A stretch of DNA of 64,000 nt, from assembly GCA_026874595.1 (NCBI GenBank), contig CM049307.1, positions 96,260,330-96,324,329 of the forward strand, read 5' to 3'. This document shows, one piece after another, positions 15,404-63,041 of the stretch (position 1 is its first letter; each line of letters opens with the position of its first letter). The DNA is from Sipunculus nudus (taxonomy: Eukaryota > Annelida > Sipuncula > Golfingiida > Sipunculidae). The notes under the pieces were generated by a model. That model was not told the origin of the DNA and made no database searches. It worked only from the letters and a program-made list of their open reading frames with translations. The position numbers were made by a program, and so were the translations under genes.

Positions 15404-16209
15404 TACATGTGATATATGTCATAAATAACATGATCTCAGGGCATATTTATCATATTCTCACTGATGATTTATAATGTAAATTTACTCACTTTTAATTGTT
15501 ATTTTTCTTGTAATTATTTTGCTTTAAAGATTAAAGCCAAATAATTACATGAAAAGTAACAATTTTAAAATTAGAAAAAAATAATATTTGTTTATCAATG
15601 TTTTAATAAATAATATTTCAAACTATTTTTAAAGTACATACTTATGTAACTGGCATATAAATATAACAATTAAATAAACAATATATATATATTTATATAA
15701 TTTCATTAAACATGTTAATAAGAGAATGCTTCATAATTGCTGGTAATTATAAGATTATATATTCAATGTATAACAATATATATGGTTATAAAAAATAGTA
15801 TAATTATATTTTTATTGTCATCTAGTCTTTCTGCATGCTTTAACATGCAACAGGCTAAAAACATACCCACAAATTTGTATGTACATAGCACAGCTTGTTT
15901 AACGTGGTTGTTAATGGAGAGATCTGAGGCTTCAATGGTAGGCCCTACACACGCCATGGGAATTCAGTATTAGCAATGTTATTTGATGGCGTGCATGTTT
16001 GTTGACGTTGGGATATTGTAAATAGTATAACTGGGAACATACACCACATCAACTTATCATCCAATGCTTTTCTAGATGACATCAATAGTAAATTAACCTG
16101 CTGTAGCCCGTACAGTGTGGGGGCCCTGGCATAATGACCATGCATGTATTAAAACATGATGCACTGAACATAGCAAGGTGATGCCAGCACAAACCCCGCC
16201 CATACCTAC

Positions 16210-16398
16210 CTTAGATGGAGCAGTCTGGCTTTCCTCTGGTCCACGGTATCTTATTTCTGCCATGACTTTGGGTCTATGGCTTAGATTTGTGATAAATTTG
16301 GCTGTTATTCCCAAAATACGGGCCTTCCTCTCGCAGAGCACCTCACCGCTTGCCTGGGCAAGGAAATCGATTTCTACTTGTAGTTCTACAAGTCTCCG
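16210..16398 (-). CDS. Internal coding exon of an unidentified gene, unit 2
   Basis: This is the unit 2 copy of the exon at 12975-13163, with no difference noticed in sequence, frame or splice sites. If both are spliced into one transcript they give a duplicated, in-frame 63-residue segment, because the exon is phase 0 on both sides. Confidence 0.5.
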
Positions 16399-16715
16399 CT
16401 ACGTGGCAGCACTGACAATGTTACGGTTGGGGAGCAACACAGACAATCCGGTGTCGTGGTGTTTATATGCTGTCAATACAAATACAGCTCAATGAATAAT
16501 ATAGGTCTATACTTGTTTAGACAAGGAATTCCACCTTATCCCTTAACACGTGGCAAAAACAGTGTGTTTAACTATGACACTTACGCTGAGTCAGGAAAAA
16601 ATTGATCATATATGGGTAATATGATATCATGTATATTTTTATATCGCCACGTAAGAAATCAATCACCTTTCTGCAAATTGTAAATTGTGGACAGGTTAAG
16701 GGTATTAATATAGAC

Positions 16716-27782: not shown

Positions 27783-28358
27783 TTAGTCTGAGGCTTTTTT
27801 ACTTTTCTTTGATTTTGGTGCCAGGTATGCGTGATAGTAAAAATTTGAGAAGAGTGATGTCATGCCCAAACCATACAGTAACCCGTACACACAAAATCCA
27901 TGATATGCATACCCTATACCCCCATATACAAAATCAATTAGAAACTGTATTATTTGTATTTCTGTCAACCTCTGTTTCCATGGTAAAGTATGGTTTGGCC
28001 AATAGGCTGATAATGCGTAATAACTATACAACACCACATGTACAAATGAATTTAAGGCAAGAATAACGGAAATAGCGGGCCACGGATAATGGTGGTAGGC
28101 GAGGTCACTGAGTAGTAACATGGAGGCGTGGTGGTATATGTGTAAAAATGAGATCTGTCGCCGACGGTGGCGTAGCACCATGAACACAGTATCCAAGAGC
28201 TCCACATTTTTAGTCAGCCAATACAGCAGGAAGTATGGTTTGAGAATTGCACTGTCTGTCTTGTCGTAGATATGGTGGTTTGACCATATACCTGCAACAA
28301 ACCCTATTCCAGTCACCACACTCAATCCGCTACACACCACATTGTAGATTATCAGAAT
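27783..28358 (-). CDS. ELOVL last coding exon
   Basis: The acceptor TGTTTTCCAG is followed by ATTCTGATAATC (ILII). The exon is open for 191 codons to the TAA at 27785-27783. It carries the histidine box, the other conserved elongase motifs and the lysine-rich C-terminus. Confidence 0.93.
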   Translation of the reverse strand: MLIIYNVVCSGLSVVTGIGFVAGIWSNHHIYDKTDSAILKPYFLLYWLTKNVELLDTVFMVLRHRRRQISFLHIYHHASMLLLSDLAYHHYPWPAISVILALNSFVHVVLYSYYALSAYWPNHTLPWKQRLTEIQIIQFLIDFVYGGIGYAYHGFCVYGLLYGLGMTSLFSNFYYHAYLAPKSKKSKKASD

Positions 28359-29278
28359 CTGGAAAACATAGCATCATGGACTGTATAATACCACTTAAAT
28401 GAAAAAGTGACTGGAAAAACCTGAACAACAGAACATCATATATTCTTAATAAAGCTTTAACAGAATGAGGATATGCACTCGTGTGACTGCTGCCTTATTG
28501 AAGCCACTCAAAATGCCCAGGTATCTGTTGAATAATGAGTTAAATTCATTTTTGTTTTGTTAATTAAAGTATAAATATTTCATTCAATACAACAGAGCAC
28601 TGTTACAGTATTTTTTTGCAGAACCAAAATCAGATGTAATACAGATACTGTGGAACCCGACATTACAACCACCTTTAGGACTGAAAATAGTGGTCATACT
28701 TTGGGGGATCGTTGTATTTATGAAATTCTTAGTTACCTGGATCATGTATTTGGGACCAAGAAAAATGGTCATAATTGTGGGGTAGTACCTCACCTTCATC
28801 CCCACCTTACGACCACCCATACAATTAAGACCATTTTTCTTGGTCCCGAATATATGATCCAGGTAACCAAGAATTTCACAAATACGACAACCCCAAAATT
28901 ATGACTTCTTTTTTCAGTCTCAAAGGTGGACATTATTGTGGGTTCTGCTGTGCTTGTAGGAGAAAGCAGTTACTGAATTATGATCAGACAGCCGTTCTGA
29001 AAGAATCCTCTGTGAAATTAATTGTCATCCCACAGTCTTGCCATCTAATATTTATATGTCAACTTCATTTATTAATAATAATGACGATGATCATATATGT
29101 CATAAAAAACACATTAAGAACACTCACAGGTCTGAGGTTGAGAGGTTTTGTTGATTTCTGCCACACACCAGACAGCCCCACCATCAATAAGTAAATACAA
29201 AATGTAGGAAAGGAGGTCAGTCCAAACAGCAGTACGGAGAAGTTGTAGATCTGGGTGATGCTGACAGCCATGATGCTC
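27783..29278 (-). CDS. ELOVL-family very-long-chain fatty acid elongase
   Basis: This is a 3-ketoacyl-CoA synthase of the ER membrane that condenses malonyl-CoA with a fatty acyl-CoA in chain elongation. Two coding exons (29271-29128 and 28358-27783) join in phase 0 and give 239 residues from the ATG at 29271, slightly short for a family usually of 260-320. Visible motifs: KPLNLRP followed by ILIIYN at the exon junction (residues 43-54), KNVELLDTVF (98-107), the catalytic histidine box HIYHH (121-125), NSFVHVVLYSYY (151-162), TEIQIIQF, and a lysine-rich tail KSKKSKKASD typical of ER residence. Several hydrophobic segments fit a multi-span protein. HIYHH with RRRQISFLH before it is unlike the HVFHH of ELOVL1/2/4/5/7 as I know them, so the subfamily is left open. 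An acceptor TTATTTTAG lies 7 nt before the ATG, so 5' exons exist upstream. Confidence 0.93.
28649..28946. mobile_element. Foldback MITE inside the ELOVL intron
   Basis: Two arms of about 100-120 bp are imperfect inverted repeats. The left arm (about 28649-28767) contains GTTACCTGGATCATGTATTT and GGGACCAAGAAAAATGGTC. The right arm (about 28824-28946) contains the complements, ATATATGATCCAGGTAACC and GACCATTTTTCTTGGTCCC. A loop of about 55 bp separates them. The start TGTGGAACCCGAC and the end GGGTTC-like sequence are inverted. There is no coding capacity, and it is probably a non-autonomous DNA element. Confidence 0.7.
29128..29278 (-). CDS. ELOVL first recognised coding exon
   Basis: The exon follows the acceptor TTATTTTAG and starts GAGCATC then ATG. 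It encodes 48 residues (MAVSITQIYN ... KPLNLRP) with a first membrane segment, and ends at CCT|GTGAGT in phase 0. PTFCIYLLMVGLSG aligns with the first membrane span of elongases. Because the frame stays open from the acceptor, the true start could lie further upstream. Confidence 0.85.
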
Positions 29279-43400: not shown

Positions 43401-46400
43401 GCAAAAATTTCAAACTTCACATGAGCGCCGTGACCCATGGGTCCCTTGTTTTCATTTATTTTCATGTTATTCAGTTATGTTTATTTTACTCTAATTTTTA
43501 CATCATTGTTATTTGAATACTACCTTGTGTTTGACCAGATGTCAGTGTAAGTCATGTGACCACATGTTTTGCTCAGGGCCAGTGGATCCCATCATGGAGC
43601 GTACAACCAGGCCGGCATCCTGAAAGATCCTCGACCAATCAACAGCAAGCTCTTCAAGGACAGGAATATAGCGGAGTTAGTTGAGGTAGGTTTAAGTCCT
43701 ATGTCCATATGTGCACATACTATGAGTGACTAGTGTATATAGTATATCATGTGCTGTCTACAGTATGCCAAATCAGGATAGTTGCCGGATTAAGCTGACA
43801 TCCACTAAATTGACTTTTAAGATACTGGTTATCTCATTTTTTGTGAGGGTTTCAAATTTGCAAAGCCAGCTAAAGGGAAATTATCACAAAAATTAAACCA
43901 CCTTGAATGAGACCCCTCATCTACATTGATGAATAGTCCTTTAAACTGAAGCCTCATTGCATCTGGTGTAAGTTATCTGTGCCCCTTGAAGTACAGAGTT
44001 AAAGGAAAAAGATTGATATAATTAATGCATCTGGTGTAAGTACTGTAAATTCTCTATTATAAGCTGCACCCAGACTTTTCTGTTTCCTATCCTTGATAGA
44101 TTGAGTAAAAGAAGATCTGGTAATATGTGCCCCTGGCATTACAGAGGGAAAGAAAATAAATTGATATTATAAATGATAATGCAATTTTCAGGTTTTCTGT
44201 AAATCAAAGATTCACACATCTAGGGTGGCAGTATGTCGTCAGTTTCATTCTGGGGTGGTGCTTCACTTTAACACAGTGATGTCACACATGGCCCCAGTAA
44301 CACTCAGGGTAGATCATTCAAGTATTCATTTCACCACTTAGAGCTATCTCTCAAATTAAGATTCCATTTGTGATGTTTTTCAGTTCCTCAGCAGCAGTGG
44401 TTATTCCAATCAGTTATCACCCAAACTGCTTCAAGCTCCACCGACCAGAGATTTCATCAAAATATTTGAGGTGAGTGAGAAAGTCATTTTCCAGTTACCT
44501 AGCTGGTGGCAATAAGAATGGGCCAACCTTTTCTAGTCCCTCATCTGAGTTACATACAAAAAATTACAAAATAGAGACAGTTTTTTATATGCCCTTCTTA
44601 TAAGCAATATGGTATACCCACGGTCCATTCATCTATCTGTCAGCTAACTTTTAGTGTTCTTAACAGCGCTTCAGTGGATTTTGACAAAACTTACCATAAC
44701 TACTTACCAATAAATTATCTTGCCAAAGTTAAATTATAGGCAAAGTCAATTCCTATTTAATGAGGTCAGAAATTACCAGGCTACTTTGTGGTGTTGTGTT
44801 GATAACTTACCAGGGATATGATCGATTTTGATGACACCAAACAGAAATATTAACCAATATAATACCTATATAAGTTTGATTCACAGCAAAATCTTTGCAT
44901 ATTAAATAAGGCCAGAAGTCACCAGACTTTGGTAGGGCCATGGTGACTTTCCAAAAATATGATGGATTTTCATGAAATTCATTAAAATATTTACCAAAAT
45001 TGCCAAAATATTTAAATATTTAGATTCTCACCCATGCATATTTAATGAGGTCAAAGGTCACAAGATATATGACTGGCGTATCAGGTATCCTTGCAGTGGT
45101 CTTCTTATACCAATGCAAATATGACTTTTTGGACAGGCATAATTTCTTTAAAATATTCAGAGAAACTGTATTAGAACAGTAAAGAATGTGTAAAATTAGA
45201 CTGCATAACAATTGATAGATGCATTAACAATTCACATAATAAGTAAGCTGGTGGGACAGGATTTTTGTAGCCGTTAGAGTTTTGTTGGTATAAACCCAGT
45301 TCTTTGATGTTTGATGTAGTATAATGTGATAAAAGGCTTCCTAAGTCTACTGAACAGAACACTCCCTGGTCAAGGATTACCTGTATCTTAATGTATATAT
45401 TTCAAATGATTTTCATGAATACACACACACACATGTATTATGATACATTTAACTTTCTCTTTCTTTTTTTCTTGCAGTTCATGTTTTCGTTTCTGCACAG
45501 TTCTTACAAAACTACAACAAAACATGAAGAAGAGATCCCAAAGATATTTAAGGAGGAGCTTCAGTATCCATTCACCATCTCCAAAGCCTCAATGTACACC
45601 GTCGGTAGTCCTCATACCTGGCCTCACCTCCTAGCTGCTCTCAGCTGGTTAAGGGAACAGATACAGGTAAGAAAGTCCCTCTGATGTGCACCGTCAGTAG
45701 TCCTCATACCTGGCCTCACCTCCTAGCTGCTCTCAGCTGGTTAAGGGAACAGATACAGGTAAGAATGTCCCTCTGATGTGCACCGTCAGTAGTCCTCATA
45801 CCTGGCCTCACCTCCTAGCTGCTCTCAGCTGGTTAAGGGAACAGATACAGGTAAGAATGTCCCTCTGATGTGCACCGTCAGTAGTCCTCATACCTGGCCT
45901 CACCTCCTAGCTGCTCTCAGCTGGTTAAGGGAACAGATACAGGTAAGAATGTCCCTCTGATGTGCACCGTCAGTAGTCCTCATACCTGGCCTCACCTCCT
46001 AGCTGCTCTCAGCTGGTTAAGGGAACAGATACAGGTAAGAAAGTCCCTCTGATGTGCACCGTCAGTAGTCCTCATACCTGGCCTCACCTCCTAGCTGCTC
46101 TCAGCTGGTTAAGGGAACAGATACAGGTAAGAAAGTCCCTCTGATGTGCACCGTCAGTAGTCCTCATACCTGGCCTCACCTCCTAGCTGCTCTCAGCTGG
46201 TTAAGGGAACAGATACAGGTAAGAAAGTCCCTCTGATGTGCACCGTCAGTAGTCCTCATACCTGGCCTCACCTCCTAGCTGCTCTCAGCTGGTTAAGGGA
46301 ACAGATACAGGTAAGAAAGTCCCTCTGATGTGCACCGTCAGTAGTCCTCATACCTGGCCTCACCTCCTAGCTGCTCTCAGCTGGTTAAGGGAACAGATAC

Positions 46401-49400
46401 AGGTAAGAATGTCCCTCTGATGTACACCGTCGGTAGTCCTCATACCTGGCCTCACCTCCTAGCTGCTCTCAGCTGGTTAAGGGAACAGATACAGGTAAGA
46501 AAGTCCCTCTGATGTGCACCGTCAGTAGTCCTCATACCTGGCCTCACCTCCTAGCTGCTCTCAGCTGGTTAAGGGAACAGATACAGGTAAGAATGTCCCT
46601 CTGATGTGCACCGTCAGTAGTCCTCATACCTGGCCTCACCTCCTAGCTGCTCTCAGCTGGTTAAGGGAACAGATACAGGTAAGAATGTCCCTCTGATGTG
46701 CACCGTCAGTAGTCCTCATACCTGGCCTCACCTCCTAGCTGCTCTCAGCTGGTTAAGGGAACAGATACAGGTAAGAATGTCCCTCTGATGTGCACCGTCA
46801 GTAGTCCTCATACCTGGCCTCACCTCCTAGCTGCTCTCAGCTGGTTAAGGGAACAGATACAGGTAAGAATGTCCCTCTGATGTGCACCGTCAGTAGTCCT
46901 CATACCTGGCCTCACCTCCTAGCTGCTCTCAGCTGGTTAAGGGAACAGATACAGGTAAGAATGTCCCTCTGATGTGCACCGTCAGTAGTCCTCATACCTG
47001 GCCTCACCTCCTAGCTGCTCTCAGCTGGTTAAGGGAACAGATACAGGTAAGAATGTCCCTCTGATGTGCACCGTCAGTAGTCCTCATACCTGGCCTCACC
47101 TCCTAGCTGCTCTCAGCTGGTTAAGGGAACAGATACAGGTAAGAATGTCCCTCTGATGTGCACCGTCAGTAGTCCTCATACCTGGCCTCACCTCCTAGCT
47201 GCTCTCAGCTGGTTAAGGGAACAGATACAGGTAAGAATGTCGCTCTGATGTGCACCGTCGGTAGTCCTCATACCTTGCCTCACCTCCTAGCTGCTCTCAG
47301 CTGGTTAAGGGAACAGATACAGGTAAGAATGTCGCTCTGATGTGCACTGTTGGTAGTCCTCATACCTGGCCTCACCTCCTAGCTGCTCTCAGCTGGTTAA
47401 GGGAACAGATACAGGTAAGAATGTCCCTCTGATGTGCACCGTCAGTAGTCCTCATACCTGGCCTCACCTCCTAGCTGCTCTCAGCTGGTTAAGGGAACAG
47501 ATACAGGTAAGAATGTCCCTCTGATGTGCACCGTCAGTAGTCCTCATACCTGGCCTCACCTCCTAGCTGCTCTCAGCTGGTTAAGGGAACAGATACAGGT
47601 AAGAATGTCGCTCTGATGTGCACCGTCAGTAGTCCTCATACCTGGCCTCACCTCCTAGCTGCTCTCAGCTGGTTAAGGGAACAGATACAGGTAAGAATGT
47701 CGCTCTGATGTACACCGTCGGTAGTCCTCATACTGGCCTCACCTCCTAGCTGCTCTCAGCTGGTTAAGGGAACAGATACAGGTAAGAATGTCCCTCTGAT
47801 GTGCACCGTCAGTAGTCCTCATACCTGGCCTCACCTCCTAGCTGCTCTCAGCTGGTTAAGGGAACAGATACAGGTAAGAATGTCGCTCTGATGTGCACCG
47901 TCGGTAGTCCTCATACCTGGCCTCACCTCCTAGCTGCTCTCAGCTGGTTAAGGGAACAGATACAGGTAAGAATGTCGCTCTGATGTGCACCGTTGGTAGT
48001 CCTCATACCTGGCCTCACCTAGCTGCTCTCAGCTGGTTAAGGGAACAGATACAGGTAAGAATGTCGCTCTGATGTGCACCGTCAGTAGTCCTCATACCTG
48101 GCCTCACCTCCTAGCTGCTCTCAGCTGGTTAAGGGAACAGATACAGGTAAGAATGTCCCTCTGATGTGCACCGTCAGTAGTCCTCATACCTGGCCTCACC
48201 TCCTAGCTGCTCTCAGCTGGTTAAGGGAACAGATACAGGTAAGAATGTCGCTCTGATGTGCACCGTCGGTAGTCCTCATACCTGGCCTCACCTTCTAGCT
48301 GCTCTCAGCTGGTAAAGGGAACAGATACAGGTAAGAATGTCCCTCTGATGTACACCGTTGGTAGTCCTCATACCTGGCCTCACCTCCTAGCTGCTCTCAG
48401 CTGGTTAAGGGAACAGATACAGGTAAGAATGTCGCTCTGATGTGCACCGTCGGTAGTCCTCATACCTGGCCTCACCTCCTAGCTGCTCTCAGCTGGTTAA
48501 GGGAACAGATACAGGTAAGAATGTCGCTCTGATGTACACCGTCGGTAGTCCTCATACCTGGCCTCAACTCCTAGCTGCTCTCAGCTGGTTAAGGGAACAG
48601 ATACAGGTAAGAATGTCGCTCTGATGTGCACCGTCGGTAGTCCTCATTCCTGGTCTCACCTCCTGGCTGCTCTCAGCTGGTTAAGGGAACAGATACAGGT
48701 AAGAATGTCACTCTGACGTGCACCGTCGGTAGTCCTCATACCTGGTCTCACCTCCTGGCTGCTCTCAGCTGGTTAAAGGAACAGATACAGGTAAGAATGT
48801 CACTCTGACGTGCACCGTCGGTAGTCCTCCTACCTGGCCTCACCTCCTGGCTTCTCTCAGCTGGTTGAGGGGACTGATACAGGTAAGAATGTCACTCTTA
48901 CGTGCGCCAGAATTATACCTTCCAGAGTAATATATCCTTACCATCCTCTACAGAATTATATCCTTCTTCATATAGTTTTATGAAATACTTGTATTGATCA
49001 AACAACTGTTCACAAATGCATGTTTCTTTTAATACAGGATAAAGCTGAAATTATAGGCATTTATATAAGGCTTTCTGATGAAGTTTGTTGCCCCTTCCAT
49101 GCTGTTTTAATCTTTAATGAGAATTTTCTTATTTACATTTTCCTTCTCATTAATAGATTTTTTTTGGTGGTTACTATAGTATGTCTTTGTTGCAATGTTG
49201 AGCAGGGACAAACATTCTTGTGCTAAGTGTAAATACACGAGTTATAAGCTGATCGTAGGTAGAATGCATATGCTTTTTACTGTCATCTACACCCTTTTTG
49301 CCACTCAGTTAGGTGCTTTAGTGTTGCACAGTATGCAAACAGCAGCAAGTGTCCAAAATAAGTTCCATCGGTCAATTTTTTTATATTCTTCACTGATTTT

Positions 49401-52400
49401 ACTTTAGATCAAACATTAAGTGAGCAGACGATGGACACATTAATGTAAAGTATTACATCCAGCCTTAATGTTGTTTCTCTACATCTTGTAGCACACTCAG
49501 AGTACCGACGTAGAGAAGCTGCTGTTTCCTGGATACTCCTCTGATGATGTATTTGAATCCCAGCCAGACTCAAAGGTAAAGTAAATATATGAGGATATAG
49601 TTGACTATAAATGTAAATTAATATCTCAGGAGATAATTGGCTATTAATGTCAGTTAATATCTGAGGGGATAGTGGTCTTAATAATTAAGCTAAATATATG
49701 TGGAGATAGTAGAGTATTAATGAAAATTAATATCTGAGGAAATAGAGGTCTAAGGTAAATATCTGAGGAGATAGTGTGCTGTTAATGTAAATAACTGAGA
49801 GGACAGTGTGCGGTAAATATCTATGGAGATAATGTATTATAAGAGTATGATATAAAAGTAAACATCTTAGTTAGTGTGATGTTGATGTTAATATCTCATT
49901 AGGACAAAACCTGCTTTAAGTTAATGTCTGAGGAGATGGCATTTCTTTTAAATTTAAGGTTGTAGTAAATACCTGGCTGAATTGTTATTACCTGTAGTTA
50001 TCTGTATGCTTGCAGATCATGCTCTGGGCTGTTATCACCTGTATTTACATGTATGATTGTAGACCATGCTCTGGGTTGTTATCACCTGTATTTACCTGTA
50101 TGCTTGTAAACCATGCTCTGGGTTGTTATCACCTGTACTTACCTGTATGTTAGTAGACCATGCTCTGGGTTGTTATCACCTGTATTTACATGTATGTTAG
50201 TAGACCATGCTCTGGGTTGTTATCACCTGTATTTACCTGTATGATTGTAGACCATGCTCTGGGTTGTTATCACCTGTATTTACCTGTATGTTAGTAGACC
50301 ATGCTCTGGGTTGTTATCACCTGTATTTACCTGTATGATTGTAGACCATGCTCTGGGTTGTTATCACCTGTATTTACCTGTATGATTGTAGACCATGCTC
50401 TGGGTTGTTATTACCTGTATTTACATGTATGTTAGTAGACCATGCTCTGGGTTGCTATCACCTGTATTTACATGTATGGTTGTAGACCATGCTCTGGGTT
50501 GTTATCACCTGTATTTACCTGTATGTTTGTAGACAATGCTCAGGGTTGTTATTACCTGTATTTACCTGTATGTTAGTAGACCATGCTCTGGGTTGTTATC
50601 ACCTGTATTTACATGTATGATTGTAGACCATGCTCTGGGTTGTTATCACCTGTATTTACATGTATGATTGTAGACCATGCTCTGGGTTGTTATTACCTGT
50701 ATTTACCTGTATGTTAGTAGACCATGCTCTGGGTTGTTATCACCTGTATTTACATGTATGTTAGTAGACCATGCTCTGGGTTGTTATCACCTGTATTTAC
50801 CTATATGATTGTAGACCATGCTCTGGGTTGTTATCACCTGTATTTACCTGTATGTTAGTAGACCATGCTCTGGGTTGTTATCACCTGTATTTACCTGTAT
50901 GATTGTAGACCATGCTCTGGGTTGTTATCACCTGTATTTACATGTATGATTGTAGACCATGCTCTGGGTTGTTATCACCTGTATTTACCTGTATGTTAGT
51001 AGACCATGCTCTGGGTTGTTATCACCTGTATTTACCTGTATGTTTGTAGACAATGCTCTGGGTTGTTATTACCTGTATTTACCTGTATGTTAGTAGACCA
51101 TGCTCTGGGTTGTTATTACCTGTATTTACCTGTTTGTTTGTAGACCATGCTCTGGGTTGTTATTACCTGTATGTTTGTAGACCATGCTCTGGGTTGTTAT
51201 CACCTGTATTTACCTGTATGTTAGTAGACCATGCTCTGGGTTGTTATCACCTGTATTTACATGTATGGTTGTAGACCATGCTCTGGGTTGTTATCACCTG
51301 TATTTACCTGTATGATTGTAGACCATGCTCTGGGTTGTTATCACCTGTATTTACCTGTATGTTAGTAGACCATGCTCTGGGTTGTTATCACCTGTATTTA
51401 CCTGTATGTTTGTAGACAATGCTCTGGGTTGTTATTACCTGTATTTACCTGTATGTTAGTAGACCATGCTCTGGGTTGTTATTACCTGTATTTACCTGTT
51501 TGTTTGTAGACCATGCTCTGGGTTGTTATTACCTGTATGTTTGTAGACCATGCTCTGGGTTGTTATCACCTGTATTTACCTGTATGTTAGTAGACCATGC
51601 TCTGGGTTGTTATCACCTGTATTTACATGTATGGTTGTAGACCATGCTCTGGGTTGTTATCACCTGTATTTACCTGTATGTTTGTAGACAATGCTCTGGG
51701 TTGTTATTACCTGTATTTACCTGTATTTTAGTAGACCATGCTCTGGGTTGTTATCACCTGTATTTACATGTATGATTGTAGACAATGCTCTGGGTTGTTA
51801 TCACCTGTATTTACATGTATGATTGTAGACCATGCTCTGGGTTGTTATCACCTGTATTTACCTGTATGTTAGTAGACCATGCTCTTGGTTGTTATCACCT
51901 GTATTTACCTGTATGTTTGTAGACAATGCTCTGGGTTGTTATTACCTGTATTTACCTGTATGTTAGTAGACCATGCTCTGGGTTGTTATTACCTGTATTT
52001 ACCTGTTTGTTTGTAGACCATGCTCTGGGTTGTTATTACCTGTATGTTTGTAGACCATGCTCTGGGTTGTTATCACCTGTATTTACCTGTATGTTAGTAG
52101 ACCATGCTCTGGGTTGTTATCACCTGTATTTACATGTATGGTTGTAGACCATGCTCTGGGTTGTTATCACCTGTATTTACCTGTATGATTGTAGACCATG
52201 CTCTGGGTTGTTATCACCTGTATTTACCTGTATGTTAGTAGACCATGCTCTGGGTTGCTATCACCTGTATTTACATGTATGGTTGTAGACCATGCTCTGG
52301 GTTGTTATCACCTGTATTTACCTGTATGTTTGTAGACAATGCTCAGGGTTGTTATTACCTGTATTTACCTGTATGTTAGTAGACCATGCTCTGGGTTGTT

Positions 52401-55400
52401 ATCACCTGTATTTACATGTATGATTGTAGACCATGCTCTGGGTTGTTATCACCTGTATTTACATGTATGATTGTAGACCATGCTCTGGGTTGTTATTACC
52501 TGTATTTACCTGTATGTTAGTAGACCATGCTCTGGGTTGTTATCACCTGTATTTACATGTATGTTAGTAGACCATGCTCTGGGTTGTTATCACCTGTATT
52601 TACCTATATGATTGTAGACCATGCTCTGGGTTGTTATCACCTGTATTTACCTGTATGTTAGTAGACCATGCTCTGGGTTGTTATCACCTGTATTTACCTG
52701 TATGATTGTAGACCATGCTCTGGGTTGTTATCACCTGTATTTACATGTATGATTGTAGACCATGCTCTGGGTTGTTATCACCTGTATTTACCTGTATGTT
52801 AGTAGACCATGCTCTGGGTTGTTATCACCTGTATTTACCTGTATGTTTGTAGACAATGCTCTGGGTTGTTATTACCTGTATTTACCTGTATGTTAGTAGA
52901 CCATGCTCTGGGTTGTTATTACCTGTATTTACCTGTTTGTTTGTAGACCATGCTCTGGGTTGTTATTACCTGTATGTTTGTAGACCATGCTCTGGGTTGT
53001 TATCACCTGTATTTACCTGTATGTTAGTAGACCATGCTCTGGGTTGTTATCACCTGTATTTACATGTATGGTTGTAGACCATGCTCTGGGTTGTTATCAC
53101 CTGTATTTACCTGTATGATTGTAGACCATGCTCTGGGTTGTTATCACCTGTATTTACCTGTATGTTAGTAGACCATGCTCTGGGTTGTTATCACCTGTAT
53201 TTACCTGTATGTTTGTAGACAATGCTCTGGGTTGTTATTACCTGTATTTACCTGTATGTTAGTAGACCATGCTCTGGGTTGTTATTACCTGTATTTACCT
53301 GTTTGTTTGTAGACCATGCTCTGGGTTGTTATTACCTGTATGTTTGTAGACCATGCTCTGGGTTGTTATCACCTGTATTTACCTGTATGTTAGTAGACCA
53401 TGCTCTGGGTTGTTATCACCTGTATTTACATGTATGGTTGTAGACCATGCTCTGGGTTGTTATCACCTGTATTTACCTGTATGTTTGTAGACAATGCTCT
53501 GGGTTGTTATTACCTGTATTTACCTGTATTTTAGTAGACCATGCTCTGGGTTGTTATCACCTGTATTTACATGTATGATTGTAGACAATGCTCTGGGTTG
53601 TTATCACCTGTATTTACATGTATGATTGTAGACCATGCTCTGGGTTGTTATCACCTGTATTTACCTGTATGTTAGTAGACCATGCTCTTGGTTGTTATCA
53701 CCTGTATTTACCTGTATGTTTGTAGACAATGCTCTGGGTTGTTATTACCTGTATTTACCTGTATGTTAGTAGACCATGCTCTGGGTTGTTATTACCTGTA
53801 TTTACCTGTTTGTTTGTAGACCATGCTCTGGGTTGTTATTACCTGTATGTTTGTAGACCATGCTCTGGGTTGTTATCACCTGTATTTACCTGTATGTTAG
53901 TAGACCATGCTCTGGGTTGTTATCACCTGTATTTACATGTATGGTTGTAGACCATGCTCTGGGTTGTTATCACCTGTATTTACCTGTATGATTGTAGACC
54001 ATGCTCTGGGTTGTTATCACCTGTATTTACCTGTATGTTAGTAGACCATGCTCTGGGTTGTTATCACCTGTATTTACCTGTATGTTTGTAGACAATGCTC
54101 TGGGTTGTTATTACCTGTATTTACCTGTATGTTAGTAGACCATGCTCTGGGTTGTTATTACCTGTATTTACCTGTTTGTTTGTAGACCATGCTCTGGGTT
54201 GTTATTACCTGTATGTTTGTAGACCATGCTCTGGGTTGTTATCACCTGTATTTACCTGTATGTTAGTAGACCATGCTCTGGGTTGTTATCACCTGTATTT
54301 ACATGTATGGTTGTAGACCATGCTCTGGGTTGTTATCACCTGTATTTACCTGTATGTTTGTAGACAATGCTCTGGGTTGTTATTACCTGTATTTACCTGT
54401 ATTTTAGTAGACCATGCTCTGGGTTGTTATCACCTGTATTTACATGTATGATTGTAGACAATGCTCTGGGTTGTTATCACCTGTATTTACATGTATGATT
54501 GTAGACCATGCTCTGGGTTGTTATCACCTGTATTTACCTGTATGTTAGTAGACCATGCTCTTGGTTGTTATCACCTGTATTTACCTGTATGATTGTAGAC
54601 CATGCTCTGGGTTGTTATCACCTGTATTTACCTGTATGATTGTAGACCATGCTCTGGGTTGTTATCACCTGTATTTACCTGTATGTTAGTAGACCATGCT
54701 CTGGGTTGTTATCACCTGTATTTACCTGTATGTTTGTAGACAATGCTCTGGGTTGTTATTACCTGTATTTACCTGTATGTTAGTAGACCATGCTCTGGGT
54801 TGTTATTACCTGTATTTACCTGTATGTTTGTAGACCATGCTCTGGGTTGTTATTACCTGTATGTTTGTAGACCATGCTCTGGGTTGTTATCACCTGTATT
54901 TACCTGTATGTTTGTAGACCATGCTCTGGGTTGTTATTACCTGTATTTACCTGTATGTTAGTAGACCATGCTCTGGGTTGTTATCACCTGTATTTACCTG
55001 TATGATTGTAGACCATACTCTGGGTTGTTATCACCTGTATTTACCTGTATGTTTGTAGACAATGCTCTGGGTTGTTATTACCTGTATTTACCTGTATGTT
55101 TGTAGACAATGCTCTGGGTTGTTATTACCTGTATTTACCTGTATGTTTGTAGACAATGCTCTGGGTTGTTATTACCTGTATTTACCTGTATGTTAGTAGA
55201 CCATGCTCTGGGTTGTTATCACCTGTATTTACATGTATGATTGTAGACCATGCTCTGGGTTGTTATCACCTGTATTTACCTGTATGTTTGTAGACAATGC
55301 TCTGGGTTGTTATCACCTGTATTTACCTGTTTGTTTGTAGACCATGCTCTGGGTTGTTATTACCTGTATGTTTGTAGACCATGCTCTGGGTTGTTATCAC

Positions 55401-58400
55401 CTGTATTTACCTGTATGTTAGTAGACCATGCTCTGGGTTGTTATCACCTGTATTTACATGTATGGTTGTAGACCATGCTCTGGGTTGTTATCACCTGTAT
55501 TTACCTGTATGTTTGTAGACAATGCTCTGGGTTGTTATTACCTGTATTTACCTGTATGTTAGTAGACCATGCTCTGGGTTGTTATCACCTGTATTTACAT
55601 GTATGATTGTAGACAATGCTCTGGGTTGTTATCACCTGTATTTACATGTATGATTGTAGACCATGCTCTGGGTTGTTATCACCTGTATTTACCTGTATGT
55701 TAGTAGACCATGCTCTTGGTTGTTATCACCTGTATTTACCTGTATGATTGTAGACCATGCTCTGGGTTGTTATCACCTGTATTTACCTGTATGATTGTAG
55801 ACCATGCTCTGGGTTGTTATCACCTGTATTTACCTGTATGTTAGTAGACCATGCTGTGGGTTGTTATCACCTGTATTTACCTGTATGTTTGTAGACAATG
55901 CTCTGGGTTGTTATTACCTGTATTTACCTGTATGTTAGTAGACCATGCTCTGGGTTGTTATTACCTGTATTTACCTGTATGTTTGTAGACCATGCTCTGG
56001 GTTGTTATTACCTGTATGTTTGTAGACCATGCTCTGGGTTGTTATCACCTGTATTTACCTGTATGTTTGTAGACCATGCTCTGGGTTGTTATTACCTGTA
56101 TTTACCTGTATGTTAGTAGACCATGCTCTGGGTTGTTATCACCTGTATTTACCTGTATGATTGTAGACCATACTCTGGGTTGTTATCACCTGTATTTACC
56201 TGTATGTTTGTAGACAATGCTCTGGGTTGTTATTACCTGTATTTACCTGTATGTTTGTAGACAATGCTCTGGGTTGTTATTACCTGTATTTACCTGTATG
56301 TTTGTAGACAATGCTCTTGGTTGTTATTACCTGTATTTACCTGTATGTTAGTAGACCATGCTCTGGGTTGTTATCACCTGTATTTACATGTATGATTGTA
56401 GACCATGCTCTGGGTTGTTATCACCTGTATTTACCTGTATGTTTGTAGACAATGCTCTGGGTTGTTATTACCTGTATTTACCTGTATGTTTGTAGACAAT
56501 GCTCTGGGTTGTTATTACCTGTACTTACCTGTATGATTGTAGACCATGCTCTGGGTTGTTATTACCTGTGTTTACCTGTATGATTGTAGACCATGGTCTG
56601 GGTTGTTATTACCTGTATTTACCTGTATGTTTGTAGACCATTCTCTGGGTTGTTATCACCTGTACTTACCTGTATGATTGTAGACCATTCTCTGGGTTGT
56701 TATTACCTGTATTTACCTGTTTGTTTGTAGACCATGCTCTGGGTTGTTATTACCTGTATTTACCTGTATGATTGTAGACCATGCTCTGGGTTGTTATTAC
56801 CTGTATTTACCTGTATGATTGTAGACCATGCTCTTGGTTGTTATCACCTGTATTTACCTGTTTGTTTGTAGATCATGCTCTGGGTTGTTATAACCTGTAT
56901 TTACCTGTTTGTTTGTAGACCATGCTCTGGGTTGTTATTACCTGTATTTACCTGTATGATTGTAGACCATGCTCTTGGTTGTTATCACCTGTATTTACCT
57001 GTTTGTTTGTAGATCATGCTCTGGGTTGTTATAACCTGTATTTACCTGTATGTTTGTAGACCATGCTCTGGGTTGTCATCACCTGTATTTACCTGTATGA
57101 TTGTAGACCATGCTCTGGGTTGTTATCACCTGTATTTACCTGTATGATTGTAGACCATGCTCTGGGTTGTTATTACCTGTATTTACCTGTATGATTGTAG
57201 ACCATGCTCTGAGTTGTTATTACCTGTATTTACCTGTATGATTGTTGACCGTGCTCTGGGTTGTTATTACCTGTATTTACCTGTATGATTGTAGATCATG
57301 CTCTGGGTTGTTATTACCTGTATTTACCTGTATGATTGTTGACCGTGCTCTGGGTTGTTATTACCTGTATTTACCTGTATGATTGTAGACCATGCTCTGG
57401 GTTGTTATTACCTGTATGATTGAAGATCATGCTCTGGGTTGTTATTACCTGTATTTACCTGTTTGTTTGTAGATCATGCTCTGGGTTATTACCTGTATTT
57501 ACCTGTTTGTTTGTAGATCATGCTCTGGGTTGTTATTACCTGTATTTACCTGTTTGTTTGTAGACCATGCTCTGGGTTGTTATTACCTGTATTTACCTGT
57601 ATGATTGTAGACCTAGCTCTTGGTCGTTATTACCTGTATTTACCTGTATGATTGTAGACCATGCTCTGGGTCGTTATCACCTGTATTTACGTGTATGATT
57701 ACAGATCATCTTTGACTACGTTGTGGAATGTTACAAGGCATTCATGTCAGGAGATGACACATTTGAGGAACAAGAAGAACAGCTGTCTCAGCAGCTTAGT
57801 GAGTTATTATTTTAATTTTTTAATGATTTAGCGGTCCTCTACCACATTTATTGGCACGACAATATTTACAGTAAATCCTGACTGATAAAGATGGCCTAAT
57901 AAGGTGGCAGCTTGCCTTCAGTGTGTGACACAGGCACCCTGCAACAGACCTGCTTTTGTTTTCCTGTATTTGCACAATATGGATATTTTGATATTTTCTG
58001 TATTGATATTTTAAAATAGAAATCCTACATGCTTGTTCTCAGTTTTCTATGTTGAGTTCACTATGATGACCGGTATATTTTCCTTGCATTTAAATAAAAA
58101 TTATTTAAAAATTGTTTGTTTGCAAACTGTTTTACATGTACATATCATCAAGTCAAGTTTTATGGATCACAATAGTAGACTTGTACCTAGTGTTATACTG
58201 GTAGTGCTGTATCTCATCCATTCCAGTTCTACTTGATCCCATTATTAGACTTGTACCCTGCATCATATTATTCTAGCACAGCTTTTACTTTATGGCCTGT
58301 TCCAGCTATCTCAAACTCTGGCTGTAGCCAGTGAAATGATGAAAGCAGGGATTGTTTTGCCGATCAAGAATTGGTACCTTTTTCCCACAGGGGGAGGGGG

Positions 58401-61400
58401 AGGGCAGGGAATTTTTTTTTGGTCTGTTAAACTAGAATATTAAGGAAAATTAATAAAATGTTTTCTTTCATTTACAAATGTTTTCAGAGAAGAATGGAGC
58501 ACTAGAAGATATGGAGAATTTGATGAAAGAGAATGAACGTCTTAGACAAGAACTGGAAAGTGTCCAGGCAGAAAAGGTAAGACACAATAAAGGCTAATAT
58601 AATGTGTACACAACAGGCACAACAACTTAAGAGCGGACCAAACCCACAAGTGTTTTTTTTATACGTCCGTCTATAATGGGAAGTATTATACTGTTCCCAC
58701 GGTCAGTCTGTCTATCCATCCTTTAACTTTTAGTGTCTCCATGATAACTTTCCAGGGTTTTCTTGGATTACCATAAAACACCATAACTATTAACCAATAG
58801 GTTATCTCACCAGAGTTCAATTATAGGCTGCATCCATACATCTTTAATGAGGTCAGAGGTCAAAAGCCTACTTTTCTTCTTTTACCATTTCTCAGCTCCC
58901 TTTCTGAGCATTTCCACCAAACAGCCTTTACAGGTGCTATAAGTGTATTATTCTTTACATATGACTACATTTGGTATTGGGAATGTTTGCATTCAACAGT
59001 TAAAATTCTTTACTTTTTAGAATGCTATCTGGTTACAGCTTCAATTAACACCCATAAAAGCAGGATATAATTAATTTTCTTTGAATGGTATGTGGTCTAT
59101 TATTAAAGACACAGGACTTAATAAGTTAGAACTCTTGTTTTTTATAATCACTGGTATACAAGATGGGACCATATGCACACACATATTCTGGGGATGGGTG
59201 GTTACAGTCATTTACCTTTCCAGATTTGTAACTGACATATCCGATTTCTAACATTTAAAATGATAGGAAGCTAGCAACCAGCGGCTACACGATTTGAAAG
59301 ATGAGTTAGCAGCAAAGACGAGGGATATAACAGGTTACGACACATACATAGATCAGATGAAATCAATCGTGTGGCGTCGTAACCAGCAGCTGGCAGCTCT
59401 CGAGACTGAACATCAAACTTTAAGTGAGTGATTCAACTGGTGTTGATATTTGATTAAATAATTTTTTTTTAAAAATAAATTGCACTTTGGCAAGCATTCG
59501 AGACATAGACATGATCATTAAATGTGGTTTGTTTTTATGATGTTTTAGAACAAGTTGTAATTTCATGATCAGTCATCAATAAAATTAATAGTCAGTTAAC
59601 CTTTACCAGCCGATCATCAGAATTAATCTGTTATTTAGGAGTGGGATATTTTTTACCAGATATGTATGGACCTGTGTATCACCTCAACTGATATATAGGC
59701 CTCGCATTAGCTTACACATTTTATGATTCTATAGCCTACATGTTGTATAATTGTAAACCCAGGCATGAATTTATTATTAAACATAGACTTTAACTTGAAA
59801 ACATTCATTTTCTCAGCACAAGGCCTAAGTTATGTGCAAAACTTTATCCATTATAACACTGCAAATTAATCATTGGGTCATTTGCATCAACTGACCAATC
59901 AAAGAAGTTAATTGATAAAGGGCCCATTACTATTATTTCAAATAAAGACTCTTAGTACTGGTGGAGGTATGTGCTCTTTGAGTGCTGTCTGACCTTTGAC
60001 CTTTATGTTCACAGATGAGGAGCTCGCAAGCCTGCAGAAGGACCTGAAACACAAACAACATATCTTACAAACACAGAAGCTGTCACAGGAAGACATCAAA
60101 CGCATCAACCTGGAGCGAGAGGAGCTGACCAGGCAGATTACGGCCATGGAACGCGATCTTGGAAATGTAAAGAAAATGGTGTGGGATAAGGAGATGAAGG
60201 TCACAAGTGCACGTAACGATGTAAGTCAACGTAACGGTCAACCAGCATAGTGGACAAATACCGTTATTGTGATTTTTTTTGTATAAACAGTAAAACCATG
60301 TCATCTCAGTCTTAACTCAAAGCTTCAATGCTTGTGAAGTTAAATGGAAGCAATTTTTGTCAGAATGAGTGTGATTTAATTTTGCAAGGGCTTTTAAGAT
60401 TATGATTTTGAGTATTGTAATTTGTTTCATGCAATTTCTCAAACAAAACTTAACTGTGTTATTAAACTGCCTTTATTATATGATCTTTCTTTGTGTTAAA
60501 CCCTGTGCAGCTGTTGTAGGATAATCTTCACACAATAGGTAACTTATGAATGAAGAATGGACTATAATTTCTTTTCCTGATTCATATAGAAAATGTCCAG
60601 TGACTTTCTTTCTAAAATGTTTGCTGCCATTTTATATATTCTAACTTACAGTTCCATAGTTCGTTCATAACTGCATGCATCATTCTTAACAAGCAGTTCA
60701 CTTGGTAATTAATACTTAGAATATATGATGCAATTTAAATTCACAGATTTTGGAATGGTTCATAACCCAAAATTACCTGTAGGTTGCTGACAAGAAGTCA
60801 TGCAGGCATCTTGTTCTTGCCTCTTCTCTGTGGCTAAGGGTCCAATCACCACTGAACCAACCACAAATATATTCTCACCTTGAAATGGTCTTCCAAATGC
60901 TGTTGTGTCAAATAAAAAAAAAATTATAAAAGTGTTCATATGCTGCCATCTTTTGTACACACCAAAACATGGATGTCAAAAGTCTGATGACAGAAATAAT
61001 TATTTGGTTTCAGTAATGTAGTATTTTTAAAATAAAGTTCCAGTGTTATTACATGCATATTAAAGCAAGGTTACTGATTCAATAGAAATTTCTTGTAAAT
61101 GTTTGTTAAAATAGTCTTTAGCAGTAAATGTGAGGTTAAAAACCTACTCATGCGACTATACAAGGCCACGCTGAATTCAATAGTTAATGAATTAAAAATT
61201 ATTGTTCAAGTTGTCATAACATTATTTGAGTCTTCAGTGACACGGAAATTTGTCACACTGAATCATATACTGTACTTATTGTAGATAAATGATACTGTGA
61301 TAATAGTAACATGTCTGTATTATTCTCCACAGCTGGACACAAAATGCAGCGAATACAACAATATCGTAGAACAGCTCCTTCTGCAGCTTGGCAAGGACCC

Positions 61401-62046
61401 CACAAACTCGGACCTGTACATGTCACCAGCCACAATCCAGAACAACGTTCACATTAACAGTACAATCAAGGTAAGCTAGTGCCACAGTGATAAGACCAAG
61501 ATAAAATGTTAACCTTTGCATTTTATGAACAGTCTTGAGATACCATGAATTAGTCCCAGACATTAGCATTATTTTATTAGTAAATTTCCTGTTTCTTTTC
61601 CTGGTTTCTAAAAATACACTCAGGGTTTTCAAGTGTCTTTGAACAGCAAAGCATTTTTTGCACTCGCTGTTATTTAAAGGATTCAATTCTCTCTTCTCAG
61701 TGAGGAATATTCAAATTAAAATTTGAAATTTTTAAATCTTTTGAATTAATATCAGTGTCACTCACTGATACTAATTAATACTGCTTTGAAACTATAATGA
61801 AATAATTTTGAAACTGGATTATTTATTCCATGCATCAGATGTCAGAAATAATTATTGATATTTTATTTTCCAGTTGTAACCTGCATTGAATTGGCAGCCA
61901 GGAAACATTGGGTGTGTTGATATATCAGTTGATAATAAATTTTGTTTCCCTTTCAGCCAGCATTAAACACGCTGTTAACACAGGCCAAACAACAGAAGAA
62001 TGCTTCAGAAGAGGCAAAGTTCAGGGCCACAGAGGAACTTGATCAG
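40348..62046 (+). CDS. NDC80: NDC80/HEC1 kinetochore protein, 3' part outside the window
   Basis: NDC80 is the microtubule-binding subunit of the Ndc80 complex (with NUF2, SPC24, SPC25) at the outer kinetochore. Twelve coding exons with GT-AG introns and consistent phases give 487 codons. The vertebrate protein is about 640 residues, so roughly 150 remain downstream. Domains: a basic Ser/Arg-rich tail (1-95), then KDPRPINSK and a calponin-homology domain (about 95-235) with [20 protein letters not shown] and LLAALSWLREQI, then FMSGDDTFEEQEEQLSQQL and a long coiled coil (about 250-415). A loop-like LGKDPTNSDLYMSP follows near 430, then coiled coil resumes. The start is the ATG at 40348 in a Met-Asn-Arg-Lys context. 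Coding exons are 40348-40417, 41031-41178, 43577-43685, 44384-44470, 45478-45666, 49492-49575, 57705-57798, 58488-58576, 59267-59423, 60015-60220, 61333-61470 and 61957-62046. The introns on both sides of coding exon 6 are huge minisatellites. Confidence 0.96.
41031..41178 (+). CDS. NDC80: NDC80 coding exon 2 (residues 24-72)
   Basis: Acceptor CTCTCCAG, donor AAAAG|GTACAG, phase 1 to phase 2. It encodes a Gly/Ser/Arg tail with repeated GGRSS and RLS motifs, ending KKTTPSKR. Together with exon 1 this is the Aurora B-regulated tail. Confidence 0.9.
41630..41800 (-). repeat. Inverted member of the CAGCTGAGCTAAAA repeat family in NDC80 intron 2
   Basis: TTTTTAGCTCAGCTGACTGTA followed by TCGTGGTCCGTCGTCCCG is the reverse complement of the module ending the repeats at 33625 and 35470. 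The inner end is not defined. Confidence 0.5.
42450..42471 (+). repeat. Poly(C) run of 22
   Basis: An uninterrupted C-run within NDC80 intron 2, a likely site of length error. A frame across it encodes only a proline run. Confidence 0.9.
43577..43685 (+). CDS. NDC80: NDC80 coding exon 3 (residues 73-109)
   Basis: Acceptor TTTGCTCAG, donor GTTGAG|GTAGGT, phase 2 to 0. It encodes ILKDPRPINSKLFKDRNIAE, the family motif (KDPRP) that opens the calponin-homology domain. Confidence 0.95.
44384..44470 (+). CDS. NDC80: NDC80 coding exon 4 (residues 110-138)
   Basis: Acceptor GTTTTTCAG, donor TTTGAG|GTGAGT, phase 0 at both ends. It encodes FLSSSGYSNQLSPKLLQAPP followed by TRDFIKIFE, matching the conserved LQAPS-x-KDFLKIF block of animal NDC80. 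Confidence 0.96.
44590..45080 (+). repeat. Dispersed repeat in NDC80 intron 4, related to 58655-58875
   Basis: This shares CCCACGGTC, TAACTTTTAGTGT, AACTTACCATAACTA or ACACCATAACTAT, ACCAATA, ATTATAGGC and TTTAATGAGGTCAGA with the sequence at about 58655-58875. It also has two or three internal diverged repeats with GAGGTCAGAAATTACCAG and AAGGTCACAAG. Confidence 0.6.
45478..45666 (+). CDS. NDC80: NDC80 coding exon 5 (residues 139-201)
   Basis: Acceptor CTTTTTTTCTTGCAG, donor ATACAG|GTAAGA, phase 0 at both ends. It encodes the core of the calponin-homology domain, including EEEIPKIFKEELQYPFTISK and [20 protein letters not shown]. The last ~76 nt and the donor are the founder of the 92-bp array that fills the next intron. 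Reading on into the intron meets TGA after five codons (VRKSL), so only this first donor keeps the full protein frame. Confidence 0.97.
45590..48895 (+). repeat. 92-bp tandem array of an exon tail plus 5' splice site, 36 copies
   Basis: The 92-bp unit holds about 76 nt of exon 5 (from TACACCGTCGGTAGTCC to AACAGATACAG), the donor GTAAGAAWGTC and a short CCTCTGATG link. Donor positions step by exactly 92 bp from 45667 through most of the array, with 1-bp and 3-bp deletions near 47733 and 48018. There are 36 units including the real exon end (35 extra). Units near the exon are almost identical. Those at the 3' edge (48600 onward) carry more substitutions. The array fills 3.2 kb of the 3.8-kb intron. 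Each unit also has a pyrimidine-rich CCTCACCTCCTAGCTGCTCTCAG that resembles an acceptor. Confidence 0.97.
49492..49575 (+). CDS. NDC80: NDC80 coding exon 6 (residues 202-229)
   Basis: Acceptor ACATCTTGTAG, donor CAAAG|GTAAAG, phase 0 at both ends (84 nt). It encodes HTQSTDVEKLLFPGYSSDDV plus FESQPDSK, the variable end of the calponin-homology domain. It lies between the two splice-site arrays. Skipping it would keep the frame. Confidence 0.9.
49576..49945 (+). repeat. Degenerate minisatellite at the start of NDC80 intron 6
   Basis: Around eight diverged units share TTAATATCTGAGGAGATAGT-like sequence (variants AAATATCTGAGGAGATAGTG and AAATATATGTGGAGATAG), spaced unevenly at about 35-60 bp. 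It starts directly at the donor of coding exon 6 and is unrelated to the 92-bp and 47-bp arrays. Confidence 0.7.
49984..57704 (+). repeat. 47-bp tandem array ending at an NDC80 acceptor, ~160 copies
   Basis: The unit reads GTAGACCATGCTCTGGGTTG, then TTATCACCTGTATTTACCTG, then TATGATT, 47 bp. A 37-bp variant lacks one ATTTACCTGT block. Each unit contains GATTGTAG|ATCATG or GTTTGTAG|ACCATG, which resembles the true acceptor of coding exon 7 (GATTACAG|ATCATC at 57704/57705). The last, diverged unit is the real 3' splice site. Units at both edges differ most (for example TTGCAGATCATG at about 50012), and the middle is nearly uniform. It occupies about 7.7 kb, nearly all of the intron. Frames reading through it (MLWVVITCIYLY...) are repeat shadows. 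Confidence 0.97.
50450..54057 (+). repeat. 1,803-bp higher-order duplication within the 47-bp array
   Basis: The order of variant units (37-bp forms, GACAATGCTCAGGG, GTTGCTATCACC) repeats with an offset of 1,803 bp (landmarks at 51053/52856, 51419/53222, 51926/53729). 1,803 equals 36x47 plus 3x37. A shorter period of 366 bp (7x47+37) is seen at 51053/51419 and 53729/54095, and another of 1,155 bp at 54743/55898. Confidence 0.85.
57705..57798 (+). CDS. NDC80: NDC80 coding exon 7 (residues 230-260)
   Basis: Acceptor GTATGATTACAG, donor CAGCTTA|GTGAGT, phase 0 to 1. It encodes IIFDYVVECYKAFMSGDDTF followed by EEQEEQLSQQL, matching the conserved CYxxFMSGxDxF motif between the calponin-homology domain and the coiled coil. 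Confidence 0.96.
58488..58576 (+). CDS. NDC80: NDC80 coding exon 8 (residues 261-290)
   Basis: Acceptor ATGTTTTCAG, donor GAAAAG|GTAAGA, phase 1 to 0. It encodes charged heptad-like coiled coil (NLMKENERLRQELESVQAEK). Confidence 0.93.
58655..58875 (+). repeat. Dispersed repeat in NDC80 intron 8, related to 44590-45080
   Basis: This has the same ordered motifs as the intron 4 copy, including CCCACGGTCAGTCTGTCTAT and TTTAATGAGGTCAGAGGTCA. Confidence 0.6.
59267..59423 (+). CDS. NDC80: NDC80 coding exon 9 (residues 291-342)
   Basis: Acceptor AAAATGATAG (weak pyrimidine tract), donor TTTAA|GTGAGT, phase 0 to 1. It encodes coiled coil with RLHDLKDELAAKTRDITGYD and QLAALETEHQTL. Confidence 0.92.
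60015..60220 (+). CDS. NDC80: NDC80 coding exon 10 (residues 343-411)
   Basis: Acceptor TATGTTCACAG, donor AACGAT|GTAAGT, phase 1 to 0. It encodes coiled coil with LSQEDIKRINLEREELTRQI and VWDKEMKVTSARND. These fit the family pattern around an IxRINxERxEL block and a W-x-E-E/K-x-K block. Confidence 0.95.
61333..61470 (+). CDS. NDC80: NDC80 coding exon 11 (residues 412-457)
   Basis: Acceptor TATTCTCCACAG, donor ATCAAG|GTAAGC, phase 0 at both ends. It encodes LDTKCSEYNNIVEQLLLQLG, then a non-helical KDPTNSDLYMSPATIQNN that corresponds in position to the NDC80 loop interrupting the coiled coil. Confidence 0.93.
61957..62046 (+). CDS. NDC80: NDC80 coding exon 12 (residues 458-487)
   Basis: Acceptor TTTCCCTTTCAG, donor GATCAG|GTCAGT, phase 0 at both ends. 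It encodes PALNTLLTQAKQQKNASEEA plus KFRATEELDQ, the coiled coil after the loop. Later exons are outside the window. Confidence 0.92.
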
Positions 62047-62228: not shown

Positions 62229-62320
62229 ACCTATTTTTATGCCCCCGCCACAAAGTGGCCGGGGCATATAGTTTTACCCATGTCCGTCATTCCGTCATTC
62301 CGAAATGAAACAGTTGTACA
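62229..62320 (+). repeat. Hairpin-headed start of a dispersed repeat (ATGCCCCCGCC)
   Basis: TATGCCCCCGCCACAAAGTG followed by GCCGGGGCATAT forms a strong hairpin (TATGCCCC...GGGGCATA). It is followed by CATGTCCGTCATTCCGTCAT and leads straight into the 180-bp tandem units. Confidence 0.7.
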
Positions 62321-63041
62321 GACTTTTTTTCGCAATGCCTGCAGATATTGGCCTAATTTTTGGTGTGTTGGCAGATAATGACCAGTTACATATCGAGTTC
62401 GCGTTTCGTCCCGGTTGACCTACTTTTGACCGTTTTACAGCTCCTAAACTTAGAAAATTTTTATGAAAAATAGAAATTTTCATGACAAATACACATGTAC
62501 GGACTTTTTTTCGCAATGCCTGCAGATATTAGCCTGAATTTTGGTGTGTGGGCAGATAATGACCAGTTACAGATCGATTTCGCGTTTCGTCCCGGTTGAC
62601 CTTCTTTTGACCGTTTTACGGCTCCTAAACTTAGAAAATTTCATGAAAAATAGAAATTTTCATGACAAATACACATGTACGGACTTTTTTTCGCAATGCC
62701 TACAGATATTGGCCTGATTTTTGGTGTGTGGGCAGATAATGACCAGTTACAGATCGAGTTCGCGTTTCGTCCCGGTTGACCTACTTTTGACCGTTTTACG
62801 GCTACTAAACTTAGAAAATTTCATGAAAAATAGAAATTTTCATGACAAATACACATGTACGGACTTTTTTTCGCAATGCCTGCAGATATTGGCCTGATTT
62901 TCGGTGTGTGGGCAGATAATGACCAGTTACAGATCGAGTTTGCGTTTCGTCCCAGTTGACCTACTTTTGACCGTTTTACGGCTCCTAAACTTAGAAAAAT
63001 TCATGAAAAATAGAAATTTTCATGACAAATACACATGTACA
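62321..63041 (+). repeat. 180-bp tandem repeat, four copies
   Basis: Units starting GACTTTTTTTCGCAATGCCT lie at 62321, 62502, 62682 and 62862. Shared inner motifs are ATAATGACCAGTTACAGATC, GCGTTTCGTCCCGGTTGACC and AATTTTCATGACAAATACAC. The copies are very similar. It lies in the NDC80 intron after coding exon 12. Confidence 0.92.

Follow-up and report, generated by a model that had tools for sequence, protein, structure and literature searches.

Tandem arrays spanning three splice sites of NDC80 in Sipunculus nudus, probably tolerated minisatellites of a known kind

We analyzed 64,000 nucleotides (nt) of the annelid Sipunculus nudus (GenBank assembly GCA_026874595.1, contig CM049307.1, positions 96,260,330 to 96,324,329, forward strand; hereafter the window, in whose coordinates all positions are given) and find that two neighbouring introns of its kinetochore gene NDC80 carry tandem arrays at three splice sites. 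Array 1 contains 36 copies of a 5′ splice site (donor), array 2 contains about 166 copies of a segment with a 3′ splice site (acceptor) and array 3 is a diverged repeat that starts at a further donor; both counts, 36 and 166, come from one assembly. With a probability of roughly 0.7, we regard the arrays as minisatellites spanning splice sites ("mirages") that the gene tolerates, with the exon-adjacent sites winning by exon definition and stray transcripts being removed by nonsense-mediated decay (NMD). The case belongs to a known kind of repeat; its arrays are large and occupy three splice sites within a single gene, and they are probably tolerated rather than selected.

The exon at which array 1 starts (45478-45666, plus strand; 189 nt, 63 codons) encodes the end of the NDC80 CH domain. 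Its product matches the Pfam family Ndc80_HEC (PF03801; E = 3.3e-18) and, in the PDB, human Hec1/NDC80 (E = 6.3e-21); its boundaries were read from the splice sites, and its acceptor is the pyrimidine-rich TCTTTCTTTTTTTCTTGCAG. The original prediction labelled this exon as number 5; we keep this as an unconfirmed label and accordingly call the three exons that follow 6, 7 and 8.

Tandem Repeats Finder (TRF) places array 1 at 45592-48905 on the plus strand, with a period of 92 bp, 36.1 copies and 97% matches. Every one of the 36 occurrences of CAGGTAAGA in the 64-kb window falls within array 1. The donors, CAG|GTAAGA, span 45664-48888 and begin at the true end of the exon, and 33 of the 35 spacings between them are 92 bp (one is 91 and one 89 bp). 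The original prediction of 36 such donors in a repeat of 92 bp, starting from the true NDC80 exon end and with a donor retained in each unit (36/36), is therefore borne out. Its number is right for the donor total but not for the intronic copies, of which there are 35, since the first donor (45664-45672) is the real one. Each unit consists of 75 nt of exon tail and a 17-nt link with the donor, and the array opens with a partial unit formed by the last 75 nt of the exon. Array 1 fills 3239 bp of the intron behind this exon, which is 3825 bp long.

The units were also compared with the exon. Units 2 to 18 differ from it at 0 to 2 of 75 sites, and units 34, 35 and 36 at 4, 5 and 8; the near-exon units being nearly uniform and the last ones diverged, the far edge should be old, and homogenisation or expansion on the exon side should be recent. 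The exon tail is identical to unit 10, and most other units near the exon show two differences from it (TAC to TGC and GGT to AGT) that would alter the Tyr and the Gly of the SMYTVG motif. Hence, the exon copy keeps the coding form and the intronic copies have drifted.

The next intron (49576-57704, 8129 bp) is 98% tandem repeat (7959 bp according to TRF) and harbors two further splice-site arrays that were absent from the original prediction. Array 2 (49982-57697, plus strand) was delimited by TRF and by counts of spacings and AGs, and its about 166 units of 47 bp are spaced by 47 bp in 153 of 165 cases, by 37 bp in 11 and by 44 bp in one. Each unit ends in a stretch resembling a 3′ splice site, with the AG intact in 163 of 166. 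The real acceptor, GATTACAG|ATCATC, is the end of the last unit (57658-57704) and is followed by exon 7 (57705-57798), which begins with ATCATC. The exon start ATCAT is retained behind the AG in 7 of the 166 units, located in the two outer parts of the array (at 50018 and at 56874-57519), and the last, real unit has ACGTG where most units have ACCTG. Variation in the AG columns is about as low as in the neighbouring ones, so that we see no evidence of selection on the acceptor in array 2.

Array 3 (49576-49818, plus strand) begins exactly at the GT (49576) of the donor of exon 6, an exon of 84 nt and 28 codons (49492-49575, plus strand) that is in phase 0 on both sides. Its units of 32 to 36 bp were called by TRF in two parts (49576-49745 and 49751-49818). 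Among nine local matches to its unit, six scored at least 42, with a shuffle maximum of 34; a further copy at 49917-49951 (score of 37) lies just over the shuffles, and the matches at 49816 and 49853 (scores of 27 and 25) do not rise above chance. The donor is poorly kept in these units, and array 3 is an older, diverged array.

The arrays have the marks of mirages. The unit spans the exon-intron boundary in array 1 and in the last unit of array 2; AG or GT is kept in 36 of 36 donors and 163 of 166 acceptors, and poorly in array 3; and in array 1, the interior has evolved in concert with the array edge being left out (units 2 to 18 versus 34 to 36). Could the arrays be a product of the assembly, the true locus having far fewer units than 36 and 166? 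Long exact repeats speak for this: units 12 to 18 are identical, with a run of 647 bp that matches itself exactly when shifted by 92 bp. Array 2 likewise contains a perfect self-match of 1832 bp at a shift of 1803 bp (50426-52257 versus 52229-54060), the mark of either a recently duplicated block or a duplication in the assembly. However, units 19 to 36 carry many differences found in single copies and two length variants, without periodic arrangement, which a simple assembly loop is not expected to produce, and array 3 is old and diverged. We judge an assembly artifact to be unlikely.

What would the cell make of the surplus sites? Joining the exons computationally gives an open NDC80 frame through exon 8 (58488-58576, plus strand), and this frame is preserved only with the first donor and the last acceptor. 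As originally predicted, an in-frame TGA (45682-45684, plus strand) follows the first donor and would truncate the product of every later one: all 35 reach this stop, at a distance of 74 to 3198 nt upstream of the exon junction. By the position rule of NMD (50 to 55 nt before a junction), later-donor transcripts have premature stops where NMD is expected, and the claim that a coding transcript requires the first donor holds. No long reading frame passes through array 1; between stops, the largest frame that covers the site comes to an end at 45684. The same applies to the acceptors, since with each of the 163 earlier ones in array 2, translation would run into a stop within or before the exon at 58488. 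In-frame inserts derived from array 2 were considered and rejected: 58 of the 163 acceptors fit the frame by length, yet all 163 hit a stop. A transcript that skips the 84-nt exon stays in frame and loses 28 residues. Thus, the choice of a later donor or of an earlier acceptor is destructive, and the third possible error, exon skipping, would not be seen by NMD.

The origin of the arrays and their probable toleration are as follows. A 92-bp segment comprising the exon tail and the donor was duplicated in tandem and expanded to 36 donors, and an adjoining 47-bp acceptor segment expanded to about 166 copies; nearly uniform units near the exon and diverged ones at the far end are what a growing minisatellite shows. 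For 75 nt upstream, all donors have the same context, and the first is set apart by how far it lies from the acceptor of the exon. The pyrimidine-rich acceptor may thus pair with the nearest donor to define the 189-nt exon, and in the next intron, the acceptor closest to the downstream donor would win. Exon definition predicts the use of exon-adjacent sites, and both true sites match this prediction. Later donors and earlier acceptors would rarely be used, and their transcripts would be destroyed by NMD. We infer that the gene works because the spliceosome defines its exons from their outer ends.

Repeats of this kind are known from other animals. In amphioxus, minisatellites across exon-intron boundaries, termed mirages, were found in Adh3 and the globin genes BflGb6 and BflGb9, at 5′ as well as 3′ boundaries, and the Adh3 data together with reverse transcription-PCR suggested that regular splicing is undisturbed (PMC3087553). 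A further report adds the lancelet genes for PGBD5, with similar repeats, and troponin C (PMC3902484). The NDC80 arrays are like these in that tandem duplications span the boundary, most copies keep AG or GT, and the inside is homogenised while the edge is diverged. They differ in size, the globin genes having few units (6 and 3 in two haplotypes of BflGb6 and one duplicate in BflGb9) compared with 36 and about 166 in NDC80, and in extent, since three splice sites in two neighbouring introns of NDC80 carry arrays, unlike the two globin cases. Furthermore, length variation and normal splicing were measured in amphioxus, whereas the NDC80 arrays are known from the sequence of a single assembly.

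A second precedent is the variable number tandem repeat (VNTR) in intron 18 of human ABCA7, with about 12 to 427 units of 25 bp, each having the donor of exon 18 as its first two bases (PMC5954066). Retention of one unit amounts to 2 ± 1%, independent of array length, and in-frame skipping of exon 19 rises strongly with array length (PMC5954066). In both genes, the array starts at the real donor, each unit begins with a donor and the use of a later donor would shift the frame. The ABCA7 unit has only 25 bp, with no exon tail reported, whereas the units of array 1 carry 75 nt of exon; no acceptor array is described in ABCA7, and an effect on splicing was measured in ABCA7 only. The original prediction knew of no example of this scale. 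With the mirages, which are the same kind of structure, and the ABCA7 VNTR, with its about 12 to 427 donor-bearing units, already described, that statement does not stand and does not make the case new. Among the matches listed in our literature search, nothing was closer than the precedents cited here, and the mollusc literature, judged by titles and the beginnings of abstracts, held no comparable case among the matches listed.

Against this background, a regulatory function has to be weighed. Later donors could compete with the first, unproductive transcripts could be passed to NMD and the length of the array could set NDC80 output. Over 9 nt, the 35 later donors do not differ from one another, each of them gives a transcript of the NMD type, and the exon tail is alike around each donor, so that only position favours the first. 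However, the donor is not significantly conserved beyond the rest of the unit, use of the second-unit donor in ABCA7 is low and independent of length, and the amphioxus mirages were reported without disturbance of splicing. A regulatory role for the arrays in NDC80 is possible and unsupported by our data, and we think it improbable that array 1 acts as such a device; the tuning of NDC80 output proposed in the original prediction thus found no support. If array length has an effect at all, it would more likely be on in-frame skipping of the 84-nt exon than on the choice among 36 donors, by analogy with ABCA7: this exon is in frame like exon 19 of ABCA7, and its skipping is the first place to expect an influence of length.

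Tandem repeats at boundaries may also give rise to introns. In human segmental duplications, minisatellites at exon-intron boundaries can create new introns (PMC2812944); like the NDC80 arrays, they lie at the boundary, but they have about 4 copies of 30 bp on average and belong to recent paralogues, in some of which coding or splicing is changed. Duplication of an AG|GT-containing segment is an accepted model of intron gain (the Rogers model; potato RdRp; PMC4974935), in which the copies can act as new introns because the duplicated segment holds the splice-site letters. Compared with this model, NDC80 shows the lengthening of an existing intron and no new one. A related idea is a ladder of recursive splicing, in which CAG|GTAAGA would serve as acceptor and donor at the same time, whole units would be removed one after the other with the donor being rebuilt and the mRNA would be unchanged. 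CAG|GT stands at every unit boundary, and the intron-gain model lends the idea some plausibility. But the 22 nt before each CAG|GT (CTGGTTAAGGGAACAGATACAG) are purine-rich and, by inspection, a poor acceptor; the good pyrimidine tract that recursive sites have before AG|GT is not seen in array 1 by inspection, and a better pyrimidine stretch farther upstream in the unit would not rebuild the exon end. We regard such a ladder as very unlikely.

Some points weigh against arrays that are simply tolerated. The donor 9-mer is unchanged in all 36 copies, including the most diverged unit. In units 2 to 36, 23 of 92 columns are variable and none of the nine donor columns is; this invariance is not significant (P = 0.065 for 35 units). 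Use of the first donor is something we infer from the sequence. Furthermore, three of the five long-period arrays in the window have a splice junction in their end unit, and random placement put at least three arrays at junctions in 9e-5 of the trials within the window and in 7e-4 within the gene span. Since this exceeds random placement, minisatellites arising just by chance fail to explain the location at splice sites; the test was post hoc, with five arrays picked after looking, and therefore a bias toward splice sites is only a lead. The donors of the two last exons were placed one base too late in this test, with hardly any influence on it.

A far-reaching reading of this lead would be that minisatellites in this gene arise at splice sites: three sites of two adjoining introns would each have seeded an array, 98% of one intron (7959 of 8129 bp) would be copies of its own two ends, the 36 donors would face 168 complements of 10 nt, and the arrays would jointly set the skipping of the 84-nt exon as a length-variable switch in a kinetochore gene. 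We consider this very doubtful as a whole.

One of its elements is pairing of the RNA. In the upstream intron, TTACCTGTATCT (45377-45388, plus strand) is complementary to AGATACAGGTAA, which spans the real donor, without a mismatch over 12 nt. We treat this complement as a lead only; it lies about 290 nt upstream of that donor. Functional pairing over 10 to 12 nt, of the donors with array 2 or with the upstream intron, could hide donors or loop out the middle exon. Indeed, the donor core ATACAGGTAA is present 36 times, always in array 1, and its complement TTACCTGTAT has 168 copies in array 2 and a single one at 45377, where it is extended to 12 nt. Shuffled units shared such a 10-mer, in one orientation, with P = 0.0037; among eight donors tested, only that of the array exon has a complement of more than 8 nt within 1 kb, and the 12-bp helix has a mean probability of 0.96 in a predicted fold of 361 nt. 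However, the observation was made post hoc, and the duplex energy is matched or bettered by 3.7% of the background windows and by as many as 15% of the shuffled units. As more of array 1 enters the fold, the helix at donor 1 drops to 0.34 and then to 0.01, and in larger folds, the donors pair with ACCTGG within the units instead; the fold of the exon region has a z score of −1.39, with 12 of 100 shuffles being equally good. Hence, we hold functional pairing to be extremely improbable. Array 2 units contain TTACCTG once or twice each, a motif similar to the 5′ end of U1 small nuclear RNA, and the transcript therefore carries many donor-complementary sites.

The arrays form a natural experiment on splice-site choice, with 36 identical donors that share the same exon tail and about 163 acceptors, of which only one donor and one acceptor keep an essential gene readable; the use of the junctions would show the strength of position alone, as in exon definition. 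Repeats of this kind, known but little studied, put the cell's choice of the correct cutting point to the test, and the NDC80 arrays are a large example. As ordinary tolerated mirages, they would extend the phenomenon to another gene and to a size far beyond the two globin cases described. Minisatellites may also form at splice sites beyond chance, which would bear on intron growth and intron gain.

The remaining exons of NDC80 were placed by a query with human NDC80 and by reading of splice sites. They lie on the plus strand at 43577-43685, 44384-44470, 58488-58576 (exon 8, see above), about 60015-60220 and about 61957-62046; the gene extends from at least 43577 onward. By this approach, neither the first exon nor the end of the gene was found, and no exon was found upstream of 43577. 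In the intron after the exon at 61957-62046, a 180-bp unit is present in four copies (62315-63040), not at a splice site. The window has a GC content of 36.6% and looks like animal DNA. Apart from NDC80, it contains a tandem duplication of about 3.2 kb (10196-13474 and, shifted by 3235 bp, about 13431-16709), whose copies are identical at 1194 of 1196 bases (12065-13260 versus 15300-16495), and, on the minus strand at 27783-28373, a frame of 196 residues that matches the ELO (GNS1/SUR4) family of fatty-acid elongases (Pfam, E = 9e-40).

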